Origin: Desulfobacterales bacterium
Lineage (GTDB): Bacteria > Desulfobacterota > Desulfobacteria > Desulfobacterales > QNYZ01
Length of the DNA: 11,028 bases
Assembly: GCA_029938515.1 (NCBI GenBank)
Contig: JAOZUU010000023.1
Location: forward strand, 2,164-13,191
Direction of reading: 5' to 3'
Both the position numbers and the translations under genes were made by a program. The notes beneath the pieces were generated by a model. The model saw nothing but the letters and a program-made list of their open reading frames with translations. It was not told where the DNA came from and ran no database searches. Below are positions 19 through 8,918 of this stretch, in pieces; positions within the stretch are counted from its first letter, which is position 1; each line of letters starts with the position of its first letter.

Positions 19-1677
19 GTGGCCGAAGAAAGTCAAAAAAGCAGGGCATCGAAAAAAAAACTCAACTGCTGGGAAGTCACCATGTGCGGCAGGGAGCCGG
101 GGGGAAAAAACGCCAAGCTGGCCGGTGTTTGCCCGGCTGCGGTCGACATTTCATTCGACGGCATTAATTCAGGTACATACGGCGGCAGAATCTGCTGGGC
201 CGTGGCGGGCACTTTTTGCGGAGGATGCACCCAAGGGTCATTCGCCGAGAAACGCGCTTCCTGCCTTGAATGCAATTTTTATGAGATGGTTCAAGAAGAG
301 GAAGGGATGGCGAACCTGCAGACCAAATTTTTACAATTCATCACCCGTGAAGGCCCCAGCCCCTTTATCGACAGGCTGAGTTTTGTACATGTCAAGGCAG
401 GTACCCGCTTTGTTGTGCAGGGTGCAGTCGAACACACGGCGTACATCATTCAGCGCGGTTCGTGCCTGGTGGTGGTTGAGAAAGACGGTGAACTGCATCC
501 GGTGGATCACTACGGGGAAGGAGATATTGTCGGAGGTCTGGGGATACTGACCGGAGAGCCCCGGCGCGCGCACGTCGAGGCGGAGACCGACATGGATCTC
601 TGGGTGATGACCAAGGAACAGTTCGATGAAATTTCCAGCCAGGACCCCGATCTGCTCAACTTTATCACCGAATTGGTGGCAGACCGTCTGGACAGCCGAA
701 GGCCCACGGCCTACCGAACCATCGGCAAATTCATCGCCACGGACATTATCGGCCGCGGCGCCTTCAGTATTGTGTACAAGGGCGAGCACAAAAGCCTGGG
801 CATGCCGGTGGTGATAAAGATGATGCGCCACAACATGGCCCTCTACTCCGATTTTCTGGAAAACTTCCGTAACGAGGCCAAAACCATTGCCGGTCTGAAT
901 CACGACAACATTGTCAAGGTGTATGATTTCGACGAGCGTTACCGCACGCTGTTCATCATCATGGAGCACATACCGGGCGAATCGCTCAAAGACATGATTT
1001 GTCGCCTGAAGTCCCTGCCCCCGCGATTGGCGGTCCATTTTCTGGCCCAGCTATTATCGGCGCTTGAATATGCCCACCAGCGCGGCATCATTCATCGCGA
1101 TGTCAATCCGTCCAACATCATTGTCCGGCCCAGCGACCAGGTGAAGATCCTCGACTTCGGACTTGCCTGTCCCATTGGCACGGAAGATTTTGCCAATACG
1201 GGCACAGCTCACTACATGGCGCCGGAACAGATAAACGGCGAACCTCTGGATCCACGAACCGATATTTATGCGTTGGGGATTACGGCTTATGAAATGGTAA
1301 CCGGCAAGTGCCCTTTCCAGGAAAAGAGTCTCAAAGAACTGCTGGACCTGCATTTAACTTGTGACATCCCTGATCCGGGGCAGATCGTTCCGGAATTACC
1401 GGACAAGCTGCGGGCGTTTATCCGGCAAGCCGGCCGGCGTGATCCAAAACAGCGCTTTCAAGACGCGGGAGAGGCCATGGCGGCACTCCGCCCGCTGTTA
1501 AACCGAACGGGACTATCCCATAGCCAGCTGGAAATCGAAAAAAGAAAGATGTCCACCCTGTTTTTGATTTACAGCGAGCACAACCAACTGGAACTCAACC
1601 AGTTGATGGAGGACTTCACCAGCAAGGCCCTGGAACTGGGCGTCGACGTAAAAATGGCGGACTTCCGGGACCTTTAG
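19..1677 (+). CDS. Soluble Ser/Thr protein kinase with N-terminal cysteine-rich (two-CW) module and cyclic-nucleotide-binding-like domain
   Basis: Predicted cytoplasmic protein kinase of 552 residues with no membrane segment. Residues 16-96 are a cysteine module (Cys 17, 23, 38, 59, 67, 70, 82, 85; paired CW dipeptides at 17-18 and 59-60), of the kind I recall being named 'two-CW domain'. Residues about 117-205 look like a cNMP-binding (CAP_ED) beta roll, but the phosphate-cassette region reads VGGLG...PRRAHVEA, without the usual Glu, so nucleotide binding is uncertain. The kinase domain spans about 238-495: Gly loop GRGAFSIV 245-252, Lys267, helix-C Glu286, HRDVNPSN 359-366, DFG 379-381, APE 401-403. 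The catalytic-loop Lys is Asn363, a variation I recall in other bacterial kinases, so activity is still expected. The C-terminus (505-552) is a short helical-looking tail. The GTG start is chosen because AAGGAAG (4-10) precedes it by 8 bases; the frame is open to the window edge. It is followed 20 bases later by a phosphatase with the same module. Confidence 0.9.
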   Translation: MAEESQKSRASKKKLNCWEVTMCGREPGGKNAKLAGVCPAAVDISFDGINSGTYGGRICWAVAGTFCGGCTQGSFAEKRASCLECNFYEMVQEEEGMANLQTKFLQFITREGPSPFIDRLSFVHVKAGTRFVVQGAVEHTAYIIQRGSCLVVVEKDGELHPVDHYGEGDIVGGLGILTGEPRRAHVEAETDMDLWVMTKEQFDEISSQDPDLLNFITELVADRLDSRRPTAYRTIGKFIATDIIGRGAFSIVYKGEHKSLGMPVVIKMMRHNMALYSDFLENFRNEAKTIAGLNHDNIVKVYDFDERYRTLFIIMEHIPGESLKDMICRLKSLPPRLAVHFLAQLLSALEYAHQRGIIHRDVNPSNIIVRPSDQVKILDFGLACPIGTEDFANTGTAHYMAPEQINGEPLDPRTDIYALGITAYEMVTGKCPFQEKSLKELLDLHLTCDIPDPGQIVPELPDKLRAFIRQAGRRDPKQRFQDAGEAMAALRPLLNRTGLSHSQLEIEKRKMSTLFLIYSEHNQLELNQLMEDFTSKALELGVDVKMADFRDL

Positions 1678-1683
1678 GGCCTC

Positions 1684-1690
1684 GGAAAAG
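1684..1690 (+). promoter_or_regulatory. Ribosome binding site deciding the phosphatase start
   Basis: GGAAAAG lies 7 bases before the ATG at 1698, a normal spacing. It would be only 1 base from the in-frame TTG at 1692, so the ATG is preferred. Confidence 0.6.
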
Positions 1691-1697
1691 ATTGGAA

Positions 1698-2750
1698 ATG
1701 TCGAAAAAAATCAACTGCTGGGAATACATGCAATGCAAAAGAGAACCAGGGGGCGTCTTGGCGGATAAACTGGGTATCTGCCCGGCTGCAGCCCAACATG
1801 CTCTTGACGGCTTCAACCGGGGAAACAACGCCGGCAGGGCCTGCTGGCTGGTGGCAGGGACGTTCTGCAGCCGCCGCATCCAAGGGTCTTTTGCCGAGAA
1901 ACAATCCTCATGCAGGGAGTGCGCGTTTTACAAAAAAATTCATGCCGAAGAAGGAAACACCCATTTAGCCATGGGCCCCTTGAAGATTTTTGCGCATACC
2001 CACATCGGGCGGGTTAACCGTTCCAATGAAGACCGCTACCTTATAAAAAGTATGGCGGACGGCGGTACTTTGCTGGCCATCGCCGACGGCCTGGGTGGAA
2101 ATGTGGCCGGTGACTATGCCGCTGAAATACTGAGGGCCAGGCTGGCCGCTGTCACGAGCATGGCCAGGAATGAAGAACAGATCCAACTGGCGGGACTGGC
2201 CGTTGAAATCGACACGGCCATATGCCGTGAAAGAGATGAAGACCCTTCCCTGGGCGGCGGGATGGGCTCCACGCTGATCGCTGTCCTGTACCGGCATGGG
2301 AAGGCGCACTGGGTACACGTGGGCGACAGCCGTTTGTACCTTTTGAGAAACCGCCGGTTGACCCAGATCACCAAAGACCAGACCCTGGCCCGATTTCTCC
2401 TGGCCGAAGGCGAAATTACGGCAGAAGAAGTCCCGCGGCACTATTCCAGAAATGTCATGGATCAATATGTTGGCTGCGGTTACGCGGAACCGGAAACTGG
2501 CTGTCTTGACGTTTTTGACGGGGATGTACTGGTCCTTGCCACCGATGGTCTTTACAGGCAGATCAGCACGGAAACGATCGTATCCATTCTGAACACGGGC
2601 TTCGGGTTGGAAGAAAGGGCCGCGGCGCTGGTAAATGCCGCCCTTAAAGCCGGCGGAACGGACAATATTACCGTTATGCTGGCCCAAAAACAGCCACCGG
2701 TATCCATCCCAAGGAAACGGATAAAAAATGGACGACATCTCTCAACATAA
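1698..2750 (+). CDS. PP2C-type Ser/Thr phosphatase with N-terminal cysteine-rich (two-CW) module
   Basis: Predicted soluble metal-dependent (Mn/Mg) protein phosphatase, 350 residues, likely removing phosphate from targets of the preceding kinase. Residues 6-86 repeat the kinase's cysteine module without gaps: Cys 7, 13, 28, 49, 57, 72, 75, with CW at 7-8 and 49-50. By my count about 46 of 81 positions are identical. The PP2C domain occupies about 94-331 and keeps the family signatures: NED 110-112, DGLGG 130-134, GST 190-192, GDSR 209-212, TDG 282-284 and GGTDN 319-323. The Asp residues of these motifs are the expected metal ligands, so it should be active. The kinase's eighth cysteine (the second of its CGGC) is absent here. 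The last codons overlap the CBS gene by 23 bases, which points to co-transcription and translational coupling. The closest known parallel is the kinase/phosphatase pairing typical of bacterial Hanks-type systems. Confidence 0.92.
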   Translation: MSKKINCWEYMQCKREPGGVLADKLGICPAAAQHALDGFNRGNNAGRACWLVAGTFCSRRIQGSFAEKQSSCRECAFYKKIHAEEGNTHLAMGPLKIFAHTHIGRVNRSNEDRYLIKSMADGGTLLAIADGLGGNVAGDYAAEILRARLAAVTSMARNEEQIQLAGLAVEIDTAICRERDEDPSLGGGMGSTLIAVLYRHGKAHWVHVGDSRLYLLRNRRLTQITKDQTLARFLLAEGEITAEEVPRHYSRNVMDQYVGCGYAEPETGCLDVFDGDVLVLATDGLYRQISTETIVSILNTGFGLEERAAALVNAALKAGGTDNITVMLAQKQPPVSIPRKRIKNGRHLST

Positions 2751-3366
2751 AGATATATGTTCGCTGAGCCCGCCTGACATTTCAGATGACGACATCCTGG
2801 ACGCCATGAAGGGCATACAGGGATATCTGGACATCACCCCTGGTGATTTTAAGGCCCTGTATCAATCCGCCTATACACATGCCGTCGAGAGGCTGTCGCG
2901 AACTGTTACGGCTCGTCAGGTGATGACCGGCAGGGTCATTTGTGTTCAGGCCGACACTCCCGCAGTGGAGATAGCACGCACCATGGCCAACCACGGCATC
3001 TCGGGAGTTCCCGTGGTTGATCGTGAAAACAGGGTTATCGGCGTCATTTCAGAAAAGGACTTTCTTTTTCACATGGGAAGCAAGGATAAAACCTCGTTTA
3101 TGGAAATTATCGCCCATTGCTTGAGCAATAAGGGATGCGGCGCCATTTCCATGCGCCGGCAGAATGCAGACCACATCATGACATCACCTGCCATAACGGT
3201 GCAAGCGGATATATCGGTTTCATCTATTGCCGGCATCCTGACAGAAAACAGGATCAACCGGGTACCGGTAACTGACAAGGAAGAAAAACTGCTTGGAATT
3301 GTCGCCAGGGCGGATATCGTACAATCATCCTGCATACCGACCATCAAGACAGACGATCGCACATAA
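2728..3366 (+). CDS. Tandem CBS-domain protein
   Basis: A 212-residue soluble protein with an N-terminal extension of about 60 residues and two CBS motifs, about 61-115 (ARQVMTGRVICVQADTP...GVPVVDRENRVIGVISEKD) and about 146-200 (ADHIMTSPAITVQADIS...RVPVTDKEEKLLGIVARAD). CBS pairs usually bind adenine nucleotides and act as energy or ligand sensors on an attached or partner protein. The binding residues cannot be assigned here. AAGGAAACGG (2711-2720) precedes the ATG, which sits inside the end of the phosphatase gene. The next gene is an HPP membrane protein; HPP and CBS domains also occur fused in one polypeptide in other bacteria, so this protein may be the regulatory half of a split HPP-CBS unit. 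It could equally be a target of the kinase. Domain assignment is secure, role is inferred. Confidence 0.88.
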   Translation: MDDISQHKDICSLSPPDISDDDILDAMKGIQGYLDITPGDFKALYQSAYTHAVERLSRTVTARQVMTGRVICVQADTPAVEIARTMANHGISGVPVVDRENRVIGVISEKDFLFHMGSKDKTSFMEIIAHCLSNKGCGAISMRRQNADHIMTSPAITVQADISVSSIAGILTENRINRVPVTDKEEKLLGIVARADIVQSSCIPTIKTDDRT

Positions 3367-3388
3367 GGGAGGCTACAAGCTTAACGAC

Positions 3389-3925
3389 GTGGATTACTTT
3401 AATAAGATGAGAGGGACGACCAAGAGCCCTCCGATGGTGAATCTTTCCGAAATTATCTGGTCCTGGATAGGCGCCTTTGTAGGGATCGCCGCCGTCGCAT
3501 TTTTGCATTACACTATTCTCGCGGAAAGTGATCGGGTCATGATCATCGGTTCTTTCGGCGCTTCGGCTGTACTCATTTACGGTGCTATTAAAAGCCCCCT
3601 GGCGCAACCGCGAAATCTCATGGGGGGACATGTGCTTTCAGCCATCATCGGTGTCAGCGCATACAAACTGCTTCCCGACCACATGTGGCTGGCGTCGTCG
3701 GTTGCCGTCGCCACCGCCATCGCCGTGATGCACGCCACCAAAACCCTGCATCCGCCCGGCGGCGCCACCTCCCTGATTGCGGTCATCGGCAGCGAGAAAA
3801 TACACAACCTGGGGTATCTTTACGTGATCATGCCGGCAGGCCTTGGCGCCCTCACCATGCTTGTGGTCGCGCTTTTAGTAAACAACATCCCAAAAAAACG
3901 CAGCTATCCGGAGTTTTGGGTTTAA
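3389..3925 (+). CDS. HPP-family integral membrane protein
   Basis: About 178 residues with four to five hydrophobic segments (roughly 23-42, 49-68, 79-94, 98-116, 141-165) and the family signature LHPPGGATSLIAVIG at about 120-134. The C-terminus ends in a conserved-looking YPEFW. HPP proteins are inner-membrane proteins; some homologues in cyanobacteria and chloroplasts are linked to nitrite transport, but the substrate here is unknown. The start is uncertain. The frame stays open back into the CBS gene (TTG at 3293), yet family members usually begin near the YF-KM-G...KSPP stretch, so I prefer GTG 3389, with ATG 3407 as the alternative. The strong GGGAGG (3367-3372) is 16 bases before 3389, further than usual. 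The gene lies just after the CBS gene and 39 bases before the molybdoenzyme gene. Confidence 0.85.
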   Translation: MDYFNKMRGTTKSPPMVNLSEIIWSWIGAFVGIAAVAFLHYTILAESDRVMIIGSFGASAVLIYGAIKSPLAQPRNLMGGHVLSAIIGVSAYKLLPDHMWLASSVAVATAIAVMHATKTLHPPGGATSLIAVIGSEKIHNLGYLYVIMPAGLGALTMLVVALLVNNIPKKRSYPEFWV

Positions 3926-3964: not shown

Positions 3965-6505
3965 ATGGAACTCAACAGACGTTCTTTTATGAAAATGAGC
4001 CTTGCCGCCGGTACCGCCGCTTCTCTGGACATGAAATTTTTCAGTTATGCAGGTGCTGAAGCGGCTTCACAGAAAACAGGGGTAGAGACGGTAACCCGTT
4101 CCACCTGCTCTCCCAACTGTACGGGCGCCTGCGGTTTTAACGTTCATGTCACGGATGATCGCATTACCACCCTTATTCAGAGTGCCGATTACCCGGAAAA
4201 GAGCTATAACCCACGCGGATGCCTTCGCGGACTTTCCATGATGAACCTTGTTTACGGGAAAGATCGGGTCAAGTATCCCCTGATTCGAACGGGTGAAAGG
4301 GGAAGCGGGGAATTCAGGAAAGCAAGCTGGGAAGAGGCCCTTGATTATGCCGCCGAAAAGCTGAAAAACATCATGGAAAAATACGGCCCCGAGGCGGTGG
4401 GTCTTACGGTTCAGGTACCGGGAACCGGTTATGTTCATAAGGGTGCCTTTGTGAGAATGGCCGGTCTGGCCCATTGGAGCATCCACCACGGCTACGACCA
4501 GAACGGTGACCTGCCCATGTTCTGGCCCATGACCTTCGGCGTTCAGACGGAAGAGCTGGAATCTTTGGAATGGCCCAATGCCCGCTATACCATGGTTTTT
4601 GGATCCAATCTTATCCAAACCCGTCTGCCCGATGCCCACCATCTCATAGAGGCCAAAAAAAACGGCAAACTGGTGGTTTTTGATCCCGACTACTGCTCAA
4701 CCGCCGCCAAAGCCGACGAATGGGTACCGCTGAAACCGGATACCGACGCAGCCATGGGCCTGGGCATGGCCAAAGTCATCATTGATCGAAAGTTGTATGA
4801 TGAGAATTTCTTGAAAGATTTTACGGATATGCCCATTCTGGTGCGAAAAGATACCGGCAAGCGGGTCCGTGCAAAAGAGGTCAAAGACCTGGTATCCCAA
4901 GCTGAAAAACGGAAGATACCGGATTATCGAGATCTCTTTGTGATTCACACTGAAAAAGGGTTTGAGATCCTCAATCCCGAACGTCTTGATCCTTCCGGTG
5001 CCGAGCTTGAAGGAGAATATCAAGTGGAACTGGTGGACGGACGTAAAGTCGAAGTGCGTACGGTATTCAGCGAATTCAGGGAGAGTCTGAAGGAATATAC
5101 CCTTGATAAGGTTTCATCCATTACCGAGGCGCCGGCCGAGCAGATAGAAAGAGTGGCCATTGAAGCAGCTACCAATAAGCCCCTTCATATCATATATGGT
5201 GCCAGCAACTACCAGTGGTATAACGGTGACCTCAAGGGCAGAGCCCTTTCCCTTCTTCCGGTTTTAACCGGAAGCATCGGCAAAAGCGGCGGCGGCATAT
5301 CTTCCTATGCCGGCCAATACCGGATTCGGTTTAATCTTAAAGAATGGTGGTTTCCGTCCGGTGGAAAACTGAACTGGGTGCCGTACCTTTATTTTCTGCA
5401 AGGCAAAGGAAAAAGATACCCGAAAAAAGGCATCAAGGCCATGGTGGGTGGCTGGGGAAATCCCTTTGATCAACACAATATGTCCAACCGTCTGAAAGAT
5501 CGAACGACTTCAGGCGATATTGAATTTGTGGCAACCTTCGACTTTTCCATGACCACCTCCTGTCAGTGGTCGGATGTCGTGTTTCCGGCCACTAGCTGGT
5601 ACGAAAATTACGAACTTACCGCCACCATTTTGCATCCCTACCTTCAGCTTCAACAGCCTGCCATCCAGCCGATGTTTGAAAGCAAGACGGCCTTTTGGGT
5701 GGCAAGAGAACTATCCAAACGGTTGAACCCGGAATTTGAAAAATATTTCTTCCCGGAACTGGATACAAATGCAGCCTCCCAAAAGATAATCGAAATACTT
5801 CTTGAGACCGGCGGCTTTGAAACCAAAGGGATTACCCTGGACATGCTGAAAAAAGGGCCGGTTCGTCTCCATTCCACGGTCCCCGATGACCGGCAGATCC
5901 CTTTTTATGATCAAATCCATGAAAGAGTCCCGTTTCCTCCCCAAAGCTATCCCCCGCCGCTGAAGGCCACCGCCAAATTTCTCAAAAGCGGACGAATTGA
6001 ATTCTACAAGGATGAAGATCTTTTTTTGAAAATGGGCGAACAGCTTCCGGTTCATAAAGAAACCTTTGCAGATACCGAATATAAGGTCGATCCTGAAGCC
6101 CGAAAAAAATACAGGCTCAGGTTCGTCACCAAAAACTCTTTATACAGGGTCCATTCGACCCATTCCAACAATGTATGGCTCAACGAACTCCAGGGACACA
6201 AACCCAAGGTTTTTCTGAATGAAGCCGATGCCGGGGAAAGACAAATCAATGCCGGAGATTTTGTTGAAATTTATAATAACCGGGGAAAGACCAAAGCCTA
6301 TGCCGTTATTGATTCCGGCTGTCGCAAGGGCACGGCGATTTTTGAACAAGGATGGTGGGCAAGGTATTTGAAAAATGAGTCATACAATTCACTCACCATG
6401 CCCTGGATCAAACCGCTTCATGAAATCTATTTTGTTCCCGGCATCTGGACACCGACCACGGCCTGGAATGAATGCCTGGTTGACGTAAGGAGGATATCAG
6501 TATGA
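3965..6505 (+). CDS. Tat-exported molybdopterin oxidoreductase catalytic subunit, type II (NarG/EBDH-like) features
   Basis: Catalytic subunit, 846 residues, of a periplasmic membrane-attached molybdoenzyme. The N-terminus carries a twin-arginine signal (NRRSFMKM, residues 4-11) with a weak hydrophobic stretch. The FS0 iron-sulfur motif is Cys48-x3-Cys52-x3-Cys56-x29-Cys86. The segment YDQNGDLP (177-184) followed by FGVQTE, VFGSNLIQTRLPDAH and VVFDPDY matches, from memory, the NarG pattern around its Asp molybdenum ligand, making Asp182 the likely ligand (type II). HPYLQLQQPAIQPMFESKT (557-575) and the C-terminal KPLHEIYFVPG block also resemble NarG, ethylbenzene dehydrogenase and relatives. 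NarG itself is much longer, about 1240 residues. The first FS0 ligand is Cys, not the His of NarG. ATGA overlap with the next gene indicates coupling. The substrate cannot be stated; generic annotation as polysulfide or thiosulfate reductase would be unsupported. Confidence 0.92.
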   Translation: MELNRRSFMKMSLAAGTAASLDMKFFSYAGAEAASQKTGVETVTRSTCSPNCTGACGFNVHVTDDRITTLIQSADYPEKSYNPRGCLRGLSMMNLVYGKDRVKYPLIRTGERGSGEFRKASWEEALDYAAEKLKNIMEKYGPEAVGLTVQVPGTGYVHKGAFVRMAGLAHWSIHHGYDQNGDLPMFWPMTFGVQTEELESLEWPNARYTMVFGSNLIQTRLPDAHHLIEAKKNGKLVVFDPDYCSTAAKADEWVPLKPDTDAAMGLGMAKVIIDRKLYDENFLKDFTDMPILVRKDTGKRVRAKEVKDLVSQAEKRKIPDYRDLFVIHTEKGFEILNPERLDPSGAELEGEYQVELVDGRKVEVRTVFSEFRESLKEYTLDKVSSITEAPAEQIERVAIEAATNKPLHIIYGASNYQWYNGDLKGRALSLLPVLTGSIGKSGGGISSYAGQYRIRFNLKEWWFPSGGKLNWVPYLYFLQGKGKRYPKKGIKAMVGGWGNPFDQHNMSNRLKDRTTSGDIEFVATFDFSMTTSCQWSDVVFPATSWYENYELTATILHPYLQLQQPAIQPMFESKTAFWVARELSKRLNPEFEKYFFPELDTNAASQKIIEILLETGGFETKGITLDMLKKGPVRLHSTVPDDRQIPFYDQIHERVPFPPQSYPPPLKATAKFLKSGRIEFYKDEDLFLKMGEQLPVHKETFADTEYKVDPEARKKYRLRFVTKNSLYRVHSTHSNNVWLNELQGHKPKVFLNEADAGERQINAGDFVEIYNNRGKTKAYAVIDSGCRKGTAIFEQGWWARYLKNESYNSLTMPWIKPLHEIYFVPGIWTPTTAWNECLVDVRRISV
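6487..6493 (+). promoter_or_regulatory. Ribosome binding site of the iron-sulfur subunit gene
   Basis: AAGGAGG, a full consensus site, lies inside the last codons of the molybdoenzyme gene and 8 bases before the ATG at 6502. Confidence 0.65.
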
Positions 6506-7176
6506 TACGAGGAATGGTTATCGACCTTGAGAAATGTATCGGCTGCCGGTCATGTGTGGTGGCCTGCAAACAGCACAACGCCCAGCCGGCAGGCAATTGG
6601 TGGAATCGGGTATTCACCCCTGGAAGCAGTCGTCACCTGTCCCCGCCCGAAAAAGGGAGGGAGTATTTTCTGCCCGTTCACTGCCAGCATTGCCGGAATG
6701 CCCCTTGTGAAAAAGTCTGCCCGGTGGGCGCCACCTACAAACACGATGACGGCACCGTCCTGGTTGACTTTGAAAGGTGTGTCGGCTGCCGTTATTGTAT
6801 GGCGGCCTGTCCGTATGGCGTCCGTCAATTCAACTGGGAAGATCCTAAAAAAGCAATGAAACGATATGAATACCAAAATGAGTATACTTACGGACATCCC
6901 AAAGACTATCGACTCAACGGGAGACTGGTTTACATGCAATCGCGTTTTAAGGGAGTGGTGGAAAAATGCAACTTTTGCGTCCATTACCTTGATCAGGGGC
7001 TGGATCCCGCCTGTGTTCGAGCCTGTCCCGGAAAAGCACGACATGTGGGAGATTTGGATGATCCGGACAGCAATGTATCAAAAATGATCCGGGATAAAAA
7101 CGGTTTTAATCTTTTAGCTGAAAAGGGAACCGAACCCACTGTTTTTTATCTTCCACCCAAGCGGAAGGAGGGTTGA
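6502..7176 (+). CDS. Four-cluster [4Fe-4S] ferredoxin-like electron-transfer subunit (DmsB/PsrB/TtrB type)
   Basis: A 224-residue iron-sulfur subunit that should pass electrons between the molybdenum subunit and the NrfD anchor. It has no signal peptide of its own, consistent with export by hitch-hiking on the Tat signal of its partner. Sixteen cysteines fall in four groups: 12/15/18/22 (CIGCRSCVVAC), 61/64/69/73, 93/96/99/103 (CVGCRYCMAAC) and 156/159/171/175. All positions are Cys, so four [4Fe-4S] clusters are expected. The beta subunits of the NarH/EbdB/DdhB class are longer, about 330 residues or more, and have one cluster modified by a Trp, so this subunit is of the Dms/Psr/Ttr kind. 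ATGA overlap with the upstream gene, and 3 bases before the downstream one. Confidence 0.95.
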   Translation: MIRGMVIDLEKCIGCRSCVVACKQHNAQPAGNWWNRVFTPGSSRHLSPPEKGREYFLPVHCQHCRNAPCEKVCPVGATYKHDDGTVLVDFERCVGCRYCMAACPYGVRQFNWEDPKKAMKRYEYQNEYTYGHPKDYRLNGRLVYMQSRFKGVVEKCNFCVHYLDQGLDPACVRACPGKARHVGDLDDPDSNVSKMIRDKNGFNLLAEKGTEPTVFYLPPKRKEG

Positions 7177-7179
7177 AAA

Positions 7180-8409
7180 ATGAGTAACAGCAAAAAAATC
7201 GGCTTTTTGGTAACGGGCCTTCTGATGATCGCTGGATTTGTGGCATGGATTTATCAGTATAAAGAGGGTCTTGTTTTGACAAACATGCGAAATTCCTATT
7301 CATGGGGGCTTTATGTCTCGGGACTCGCATTTTTCGTAGGGAATGCGGCCGGCGGCTTGGTATTGAGCTCATTGATATACCTTTTCGGCGTTAAAAGCCT
7401 GAAACCCTTCGCCAAAATTGGTGCCCTGACGGCCTTTGCCAATGTCACGGCCGCCATGATTTCAATTTTACCCGATATCGGCCAACCCATCAGACTCTAC
7501 CATATGCTTTTACATCCGAATTTAAATTCTCCTCTCGTATGGGATGTCATCGTATTGAACCTCTATGCCGCCCTGTCGCTGATTTATCTTTATATTTTAA
7601 TGCTTCCGGATCTCAAGGGGCCCTTGGCGAAAATCGCTTTGAAGGTCGATCAACCCAAGGAATTTTCTGAAAAATGGGCCAAGCGCCTTGCCCCCTTTTC
7701 CCTGGTGGCAGCCATGGGCATTCACGTGATTACCGCCTGGATTTTTGCCACCCAGGGCGGCAGGGACTGGTGGAACTCGGCGGTTCTCGCGCCGGACTTC
7801 ATTGCGGTAGCCGTGGCATCCGGAACGGCGGTGGTGTTTATCGTCTCTTTGCTGACTTACGGTTTTAAAAATGAACATCAACAGGCATATCGCAGCATGG
7901 CGATCATTATCGCAACGGCCTATTTTGTCCATATTTTCTTGATGTACAATGATTTTATCATCCATTACTGGTATGGCGCCCACGAGGCCCTGGAGACATT
8001 ATCGATTACTTTCATTGATTACGGTTTGGCCCATGCTTTTGAAGTGCTTGCCCCCCTTGCGGCCGTCATCCTGCTTTTAAACAAAAAAATAAGACAAAGT
8101 TCGGGTGCCATGATCTCAAGCTGTATCTTGCTGATCCTGGGAGTCTTTGCCCATCGATTTTTATTGATGCCGGCGGCTTTCGACAAGATTCAGCTTTCAA
8201 TGAATCCGTTGGGGTTACAGCATAATTACTGGTCTGTACCCATCTCATCGGGACAATACGATCCCTTCATCGATACCTTTGTAACGAAATGGCATTATTT
8301 TCCGAGCGCCATCGAGATCACCATTTTTCTTGGGGTTATAGCCTTTATGTGTTTTGTGGTGCTTTTTGCCATGGACCGTTTCCCCATTGCCGGCGAGGCT
8401 GAAGCATGA
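7180..8409 (+). CDS. NrfD-family integral membrane quinone-interacting subunit
   Basis: A 409-residue polytopic protein with about ten hydrophobic segments (roughly 8-28, 42-67, 79-99, 118-140, 170-190, 204-226, 238-258, 280-299, 308-328, 377-397). Family features include YSWGLYVSG (40-48), the small-residue stretch GNAAGG (54-59), a Gly-Gln-Pro-Ile-Arg turn after the third segment (101-105) and the LHP...PLVWD block (111-122). NrfD proteins anchor Psr-, Ttr- and Nrf-type complexes and exchange electrons with the quinone pool without haem. Ten segments places it with the longer NrfD forms; PsrC has eight. AAGGAGG (7165-7171) lies 8 bases before the ATG. The stop overlaps the chaperone start as ATGA. 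Confidence 0.92.
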   Translation: MSNSKKIGFLVTGLLMIAGFVAWIYQYKEGLVLTNMRNSYSWGLYVSGLAFFVGNAAGGLVLSSLIYLFGVKSLKPFAKIGALTAFANVTAAMISILPDIGQPIRLYHMLLHPNLNSPLVWDVIVLNLYAALSLIYLYILMLPDLKGPLAKIALKVDQPKEFSEKWAKRLAPFSLVAAMGIHVITAWIFATQGGRDWWNSAVLAPDFIAVAVASGTAVVFIVSLLTYGFKNEHQQAYRSMAIIIATAYFVHIFLMYNDFIIHYWYGAHEALETLSITFIDYGLAHAFEVLAPLAAVILLLNKKIRQSSGAMISSCILLILGVFAHRFLLMPAAFDKIQLSMNPLGLQHNYWSVPISSGQYDPFIDTFVTKWHYFPSAIEITIFLGVIAFMCFVVLFAMDRFPIAGEAEA

Positions 8410-8918
8410 ATCATTTGAAAATAGATGCCGAAAATCTCCGGAGCCTGTCCAGGCTTTATACCTATCCTGAAAAGTGGCCGGAAAACGGAGATTTACATCA
8501 AATAGCGGCGACAAATGATAAAAAATGGGGCAATACTTCAGGCGAGAGCCGGCTGCAGGTTCTTCAAAACAGCTACGTCAACCTGTTTATCAACGCACTC
8601 CCTGAAGTTCCATGCCCCCCTTACGGTTCTTTTTATCTTGAAGGAATTTTAATGGGGCAATCCACCATACAGGTGAAAAATATTTATCATGAATACGGCT
8701 TTCAAACCGATGAAGTGCCGGATCACATTGCCGTGGAACTGGAGTTTCTGGCCATGCTGTCAACCCTTTCGACCCATGATCCGGTTCAGCAGGATTATGA
8801 TTTTCTGCTCAATCATCTGAGGCAATGGCTCCCTGAGTTTTTTAAACAGGTGGAACGAAGTGATGACATCGGCTTTTACAAAAAAGTATCTCGATATGCA
8901 CAACAGGTGATTTTTTAG
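8406..8918 (+). CDS. TorD/DmsD-type molybdoenzyme chaperone
   Basis: A 170-residue, probably all-helical cytoplasmic chaperone that would guard the Tat signal and assist cofactor insertion of the molybdoenzyme subunit encoded three genes upstream. Family landmarks: YVNLFINALPEVPCPPYGSFYLEG-like block (57-80), PDHIAVELEFLAML (105-118) and HLRQWLPEF (137-145). It is shorter than TorD or DmsD (about 200 residues), and the N-terminal half is weakly conserved. Its ATG overlaps the NrfD stop codon, making it the last gene of the operon. No clear terminator follows: the next hairpin (9027-9042) has no T tract on this strand. Confidence 0.88.
   Translation: MNHLKIDAENLRSLSRLYTYPEKWPENGDLHQIAATNDKKWGNTSGESRLQVLQNSYVNLFINALPEVPCPPYGSFYLEGILMGQSTIQVKNIYHEYGFQTDEVPDHIAVELEFLAMLSTLSTHDPVQQDYDFLLNHLRQWLPEFFKQVERSDDIGFYKKVSRYAQQVIF

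Follow-up and report, generated by a model that had tools for sequence, protein, structure and literature searches.

A Ser/Thr protein kinase and a PP2C phosphatase encoded side by side in a Desulfobacterales bacterium (GenBank assembly GCA_029938515.1, contig JAOZUU010000023.1, positions 2,164 to 13,191 of the forward strand) begin with the same cysteine-rich module, which raises the question of why two opposing enzymes should carry one and the same domain. We analyzed the whole stretch of 11,028 nucleotides (hereafter the window) and compared it with 291 genomes of the same class (the class survey) and with the best 80 of 577 confirmed loci found in a search of named genomes. The features of the two genes are as follows.

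19..1677, + strand: Ser/Thr kinase gene, 552 amino acids (aa), with two-CW, Crp-like (cyclic nucleotide, cNMP) and Hanks kinase domains
61..300, + strand: two-CW module of the kinase, aa 15-94 (NF045718, 101.5 bits)
385..642, + strand: Crp-like domain of the kinase, aa 123-208 (PF00027, 55.3 bits), with the cNMP-binding Glu replaced by Gly
742..1461, + strand: Hanks-type kinase domain, aa 242-481 (PF00069, 184.6 bits), catalytic residues conserved
1692..2750, + strand: PP2C phosphatase gene with an N-terminal two-CW module, likely start ATG at 1698
1713..1946, + strand: two-CW module of the phosphatase, aa 8-85 (NF045718, 103.7 bits)
1998..2684, + strand: PP2C catalytic domain, aa 103-331 (NF033484, 178.6 bits with a cut-off of 230; PF13672, PF00481), metal-binding Asp conserved

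The two-CW module of the kinase and the phosphatase

A preliminary description of this DNA, made from the sequence alone, had reported that the two proteins share an ungapped 81-residue module with 46 identities, seven common cysteines and both CW dipeptides. Our recount agreed in full: the ungapped stretch from NCWE to EEG has identical residues at 46 of 81 positions, and of the eight cysteines of the kinase and the seven of the PP2C in this stretch all seven coincide, with both CW pairs kept. BLASTP aligned the two modules with 49/88 identical residues (E 8e-31), and when the PP2C N-terminus was shuffled 2000 times, no shuffle matched at more than 17 of the 81 positions; on these grounds, chance resemblance was rejected. 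Identity between the two DNA segments is 162/264, and therefore the duplication of the module is not recent. Both copies were matched by NF045718 ("two-CW domain", NCBIfam; cut-off 35 bits) across almost the whole 80-position model, and no Pfam family matched in this region. Among 85 two-CW rows, five cysteines were invariant and two nearly invariant, and all seven were kept in each of the copies compared (48/48 from kinases, 13/13 from PP2Cs). In 58 aligned two-CW PP2Cs, six cysteines were present in 58/58 and the first in 50/58, with a gap in the other 8. The module alone was modeled confidently by AlphaFold (predicted local distance difference test 89.8); with this model, Foldseek returned 0 matches in the PDB at E<=10, and a profile search of PDB sequences with two-CW returned none at E<=1.

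The preliminary description had viewed the module as one domain duplicated onto opposing enzymes. Phylogenetic analysis of 87 two-CW domains (49 from kinases, 14 from PP2Cs, 24 from other proteins) placed the 14 PP2C copies in one clade within the kinase copies (support 99/88; found in 100% of 200 bootstrap trees), in an analysis with few columns, a bootstrap that had not settled and weak forks elsewhere. In a tree of 34 PP2C domains, two-CW was present in 13 and missing in 21, which needs six changes. Since one gain and several losses suffice, both trees are explained, and by this phylogenetic evidence the PP2C module arose once, from kinase copies. The two sets also differ in fixed positions: residue 51, after the second CW, is Ala in 48/48 kinase copies and Leu in 13/13 PP2C copies, and further shifts occur at positions 39, 73 and 82. 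The single duplication thus stands; the module is not, however, confined to kinases and phosphatases, and its PP2C copy is dispensable (see below).

Both enzymes look active, judged by their conserved residues. Across the kinase family alignment, the catalytic Lys was found in 62/62 rows, the HRD Asp in 62/62 and the DFG Asp in 61/62, and the Asp residues of five motifs, which we take to be the metal-binding ones of PP2C enzymes, were found in 43/43 rows. A Crp-like cNMP_binding domain, absent from the preliminary description, sits between the two-CW and kinase domains. At the positions that we presume to contact cyclic nucleotides, the cassette Glu is present in 4 of 62 rows and missing in 58, and the Arg is present in 37; in the window kinase, Gly stands in place of the Glu, and the Arg is kept. 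Ordinary cyclic AMP control is therefore unlikely for most family members, and it was rejected as a default for this kinase, the ligand residues being poorly conserved. The kinase domain alone was matched by NF033483 (PknB/Stk1 PASTA kinase), at 271 bits with a cut-off of 450, and the PP2C by NF033484 (Stp1/IreP phosphatase), at the score given above; both fall below the level for membership. In a comparison with anti-phage kinases of PADLOC (PD-T4-6, MADS), the 25 matches listed out of 27 cover the kinase region alone, and the PP2C had no match at E 1e-20. PHROGs matches were to generic kinases and families of unknown function.

Kinase-PP2C pairing was surveyed with purpose-built profile models of both enzymes, setting aside the kinase remnants of L044, L057, L061 (second) and L099. 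The class survey contained 53 kinase genes, 51 of them with two-CW in frame; the exceptions are L107, where the kinase is broken near the start of a contig, and L074, whose second kinase lacks two-CW. PP2C was fused to the kinase in 6 cases; as a separate gene it carried two-CW in 11 and lacked it in 15; it was absent in 17 and unscorable at contig ends in 4, so that 32/49 scorable kinases have a PP2C fused or directly downstream. Kinase and PP2C were found in a single polypeptide in L071, L086-L088, L093, L094, L122, L131, L132, L136 and L138 (L122 and L136 are repeats of L093 and L071). Conversely, each of the 14 class-survey loci with a two-CW PP2C adjoins a kinase gene, the end of one cut off by a contig edge, or a remnant of one (the remnant in L044; the kinase end at a contig start in L057). 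Named records added the pairs of L126, L127, L137, L138 and L145, the other named ones duplicating survey genomes. By these gene arrangements, the kinase family frequently works with a cognate PP2C, encoded either by the next gene downstream or within one polypeptide.

Two-CW is widespread. It was matched in 216/291 class genomes, in 199 above the cut-off; among the places listed, all those above 66 bits were fetched, followed by 4 and then 20 weaker ones. The 90 stronger (long-form) modules in the fetched loci comprised 51 in the kinase family, 14 in PP2Cs and 25 elsewhere, namely in a histidine kinase, a HAMP-cyclase, a PAS-methyl-accepting chemotaxis protein (MCP), tandem two-CW proteins and stand-alone frames; XRE-type regulators are a further host. 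The genome of the window (560 contigs, 72% complete) yielded four two-CW genes, this pair and two for short proteins. According to record labels, the 80 named loci include Nitrospirae, Nitrospinota, Acidobacteria, Planctomycetota, Spirochaetia, Omnitrophota and archaea; in these phyla two-CW often lies in short frames of ~95-165 aa, and the ones tested were on histidine kinases and one MCP. The kinase form, among the named matches listed, was confined to records labelled Deltaproteobacteria or Desulfo- groups. The module was present in 110 of the best 120 kinase relatives and in 119 of the best 120 PP2C relatives; the exceptions start at or past the module boundary, and the ten kinases are therefore probably cut or wrongly started records. 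The preliminary description had counted against its own idea the case of a module on many unrelated proteins with no tendency to pair kinase with phosphatase. Half of this was observed, since many hosts were seen, yet the pairing tendency holds.

Some hosts have unusual architectures. In a histidine kinase from a record labelled Thaumarchaeota (L152:5228-7927), two-CW (aa 596-676) lies between HisKA (436-494) and HATPase_c (680-758), which is unusual for an input domain. Proteins of 293-298 aa with two tandem modules are encoded in L039:5419-6312, L041:6275-7153 and L052:6123-7001 (one tested by Pfam, no match), and L068:5995-7758 encodes a two-CW HAMP guanylate/adenylate cyclase, the next protein along having a weak match to a Crp-like domain.

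Genes neighboring the kinase

Directly behind the PP2C, the window has two genes that are recurrent neighbors of the kinase in its relatives.

2728..3366, + strand: CBS-domain protein (PF00571; family f4, in 11 loci), the frame overlapping the 3' end and stop of the PP2C gene
3293..3925, + strand: HPP-family membrane protein, a mechanical open reading frame (PF04982, 204 bits, tested on 3383-3922)

Neighbor families were defined by gene clustering, with a Pfam test on one example per family. Recurrent neighbors were hemerythrin (18 loci), HPP (14), CBS (11), NorB-like (6) and prismane/Hcp (5) proteins, along with a NapH/NosR-like iron-sulfur (Fe-S) membrane protein in 12 loci, which scored under the NapH cut-off. 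The prismane-family gene of L051 scored as hydroxylamine reductase. A typical gene order is CBS-HPP-hemerythrin-kinase-PP2C, to which L072 adds NorB and Hcp.

We compared these associations with the background in 48 kinase genomes, which contain 124 hemerythrins, 39 HPP genes (of 41 rows, leaving out a further fragment in G126 and a row that scored below the cut-off) and 18 NorB genes. Hemerythrin was found within 2 kb of 22/52 kinase places (0.115 expected), HPP within 6 kb of 16/52 (0.114 expected) and NorB within 6 kb of 4/52 (0.046 expected). These 52 places exclude cut or broken long-form kinase-type places in G147, G264 and G154 (L043, L063, L099) and the cut module G216:C68, and in G206, G219 and G188 the place is the module of the PP2C. 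As a control, the 14 short-form two-CW places listed for kinase genomes had HPP within 6 kb at 0, NorB within 6 kb at 0 and a hemerythrin at 2, one of the latter owing to its position at a kinase locus. The test covered hemerythrin, HPP and NorB; prismane-type genes occur in all 48 kinase genomes, several in each.

The upstream hemerythrin appears from its sequence to be a distinct diiron-type protein, encoded directly upstream of the kinase in many lineages. Positions that we take to be the diiron His/Glu ligands were conserved across 32 hemerythrins. An assignment to the RIC/YtfE equivalog was rejected, as 2/2 proteins tested gave no NCBIfam match at E<=1e-5. Hemerythrin is also found fused: two-CW, Crp-like, kinase and hemerythrin domains formed single proteins of 665-688 aa in 12/12 matches, that of L143 included, with 57-89% mutual identity.

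Clusters of this kind are also seen elsewhere. At least two of HPP, NorB, prismane-family and hemerythrin genes are clustered away from the kinase in G138:C3, G123:C55, G046:C28, G173:C1, G185:C1 and G132:C1, and HPP is at most 15 kb away from 8/18 NorB genes, kinase loci counted in. Farther along the window, 3965-8918 holds a respiratory operon with a molybdopterin oxidoreductase (weak Tat-signal match), a ferredoxin-type Fe-S protein, an NrfD membrane subunit and a TorD-like chaperone; the kinases of L054, L056, L064 and L103 also have a member of this oxidoreductase family nearby. Directly upstream of the window on its contig (L005:1-2163) are genes named by eye as phosphopantetheinyl-transferase-like, Usp-like and GAF-like, and a run of N precedes the kinase.

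Possible roles of the shared module

It is possible, though we place it somewhat short of an even chance, that the two enzymes are a cognate writer and eraser of Ser/Thr phosphorylation in Desulfobacterota, used under nitrosative or oxygen stress, with two-CW sensing on both arms. Two-CW would then be a small thiolate module holding Zn or an iron-sulfur cluster, and it would report the same chemical state (nitric oxide (NO), O2 or thiol/sulfur) to kinase and phosphatase alike, so that its state would set the ratio of their activities. The hemerythrin might supply or tune the O2/NO signal, and the Crp-like domain could be a mostly degenerate gate without ordinary cyclic-nucleotide binding. Substrates would likely be encoded in the same operon, the first candidate being the CBS-HPP putative nitrite transporter. 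A more specific version is a push-pull switch, in which the cysteine-cluster module on both enzymes and a dedicated diiron hemerythrin would read NO/O2, drive the two enzymes in opposite directions and gate a nitrite/NO detoxification operon; we offer this version tentatively and consider it rather less than likely. If it is true, two-CW would be a widespread, hitherto unread redox-signalling input domain of bacteria and archaea.

Several observations weigh against the stress-sensing pair. The link to nitrosative stress, that is, the enrichment of HPP, hemerythrin and NorB, holds at the kinase loci of relatives, and the window shows CBS-HPP alone: its 13.2 kb contig was found to contain no hemerythrin, NorB or Hcp, and the sole hemerythrin found in the genome is elsewhere, beside an XRE-two-CW gene. 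Hemerythrin is missing within 2 kb at 30 of the 52 kinase places, and HPP within 6 kb at 36 (some contigs end there), and the Poisson enrichment figures overstate independence because the genomes are related. No PP2C adjoins 17/49 kinases. Two-CW is lacking in 20/32 partner PP2Cs, including that of L117, whose two-CW is the closest among the named matches listed, so the switch would have to work without the PP2C copy. The model of the full-length PP2C gives low confidence (block means 41-66) to two-CW and hence to its position on the enzyme. Finally, XRE-two-CW genes are mostly found with cysteine/methionine biosynthesis genes, which points to sulfur state besides NO.

The last point concerns the short form of the module, which is divergent (mostly about 44-61 bits). 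Short two-CW genes (L006:3541-3945, L007:164-559, L113-L116, L197-L216) are largely located among cysteine/methionine biosynthesis genes, and one short protein of the window genome, tested by Pfam, is of the XRE helix-turn-helix type. Clustering of 26 short-form loci gave a hexapeptide transferase in 15, a PALP enzyme in 12, NifS-like proteins in 5 and O-acetylhomoserine sulfhydrylase-like proteins in 4; the first two are probably serine acetyltransferase and cysteine synthase. These short proteins resemble regulators that govern the supply of sulfur amino acids or clusters. A lyase/fumarase-family enzyme with an N-terminal Crp-like domain (L197:445-2334) belongs to a family present in 4/26 of these loci. 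The XRE-two-CW gene of the window genome neighbors a hemerythrin-PAS gene and a gene judged cooS-like by eye and by its membership of the Prismane/CO dehydrogenase family.

The main rival is that two-CW serves docking rather than sensing: it would be a protein-protein module whose PP2C copy binds the kinase two-CW or a common scaffold and so brings eraser and writer to one place, the cysteines holding only a structural metal. The kinase-PP2C fusions agree with this, particularly L094, which groups with two-CW PP2Cs yet has no second two-CW, as expected if fusion substitutes for docking; the PP2C-specific residues (51 Ala to Leu and the shifts at 39, 73 and 82) would fit a heterotypic interface. 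Fusions L093 and L138, however, retain a second two-CW with seven cysteines, and the other occurrences of the module, by itself or as part of chemotaxis proteins, histidine kinases, a cyclase and DNA-binding proteins, are much like those of input domains. We regard docking as possible but doubtful. Because short-form genes are largely found with cysteine biosynthesis, sulfur or cysteine state is the second candidate signal, and two-CW might read cysteine, sulfide or iron-sulfur supply, with kinase and PP2C as one output and the NO link indirect. That idea draws on the transferase, PALP, sulfhydrylase-like and NifS-like genes of the 26 loci, that is, on the short divergent form, whereas the long kinase form is often found with hemerythrin and HPP, and the 14 control places had neither HPP nor NorB within 6 kb and hemerythrin at 2; we think it unlikely.

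It might also be argued that tandem duplication at adjoining genes simply left the PP2C copy behind, passive and with no function of its own, as the 20/32 partners that do without it would suggest. Retention of seven cysteines in 13/13 copies across several families, together with the fixed PP2C-specific residues and the near-complete cysteine set of the 58 aligned two-CW PP2Cs (six in 58/58, the first in 50/58 with 8 gaps), argues against this, and we consider it quite improbable. Returning to the stress-sensing pair, if it is true, reversible Ser/Thr phosphorylation would join the nitrosative and oxygen defence of sulfate-reducing and related bacteria, in a design where writer and eraser read one input. 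Operons and fusions give a widespread cysteine domain a concrete role hypothesis.

Comparison with known systems

PrkC-PrpC, PknB-PstP and StkP-PhpP are adjacent gene pairs for an antagonistic Hanks Ser/Thr kinase and PP2C, with PASTA sensor domains known on the kinase alone. The present pair is similar in its adjacent antagonists and differs in that an N-terminal module is found on kinase and phosphatase both. Joining of PP2C to Pkinase or cNMP domains is already on record (PMC12088040, PMC2887360); the main text of the former has 0 occurrences of "cysteine" and 0 of "two-CW". DcrH and hemerythrin-GGDEF proteins (PMC9388753, PMC4919030) are similar in that hemerythrin is joined to a signalling output, whereas the output here is a Ser/Thr kinase; the word threonine is absent from both main texts.

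The closest parallel in gene content is the HcpR/NO stimulon of sulfate reducers (PMC5701242, PMC1274295), which has the same gene classes, Hcp, HPP and hemerythrin. In the texts cited, this defence is controlled through transcription factors of the Crp/Fnr type, and Ser/Thr phosphorylation is not the control described. In Desulfovibrio desulfuricans, NO is described as inducing hcp, cooS, a YtfE-like hemerythrin-PAS protein, an O-acetylhomoserine sulfhydrylase and an HPP protein encoded beside hcpR1 (PMC5701242), and hemerythrin-like genes are noted in predicted HcpR regulons (PMC1274295). HPP, hemerythrin and Hcp recur beside the kinase, and cooS-like, hemerythrin-PAS and O-acetylhomoserine sulfhydrylase-like genes are found beside other two-CW genes. 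HPP proteins are described as nitrite transporters, an attribution to Maeda 2014 made by PMC4137279 and PMC7438415.

In the open-licence literature, we found no relevant paper on the two-CW domain and no described function for it, and no paper combining four of the following: cysteine-rich domain, PP2C, kinase, hemerythrin and HPP family. Both modules match nearly the full NF045718 model, far over the cut-off, and the domain itself is thus already catalogued; its sharing by kinase and PP2C, the single duplication and the link to hemerythrin appear in none of the literature that we found. The arrangement is real and conserved, built on a catalogued but unexplained domain, and it is a variant of the kinase/PP2C pair.

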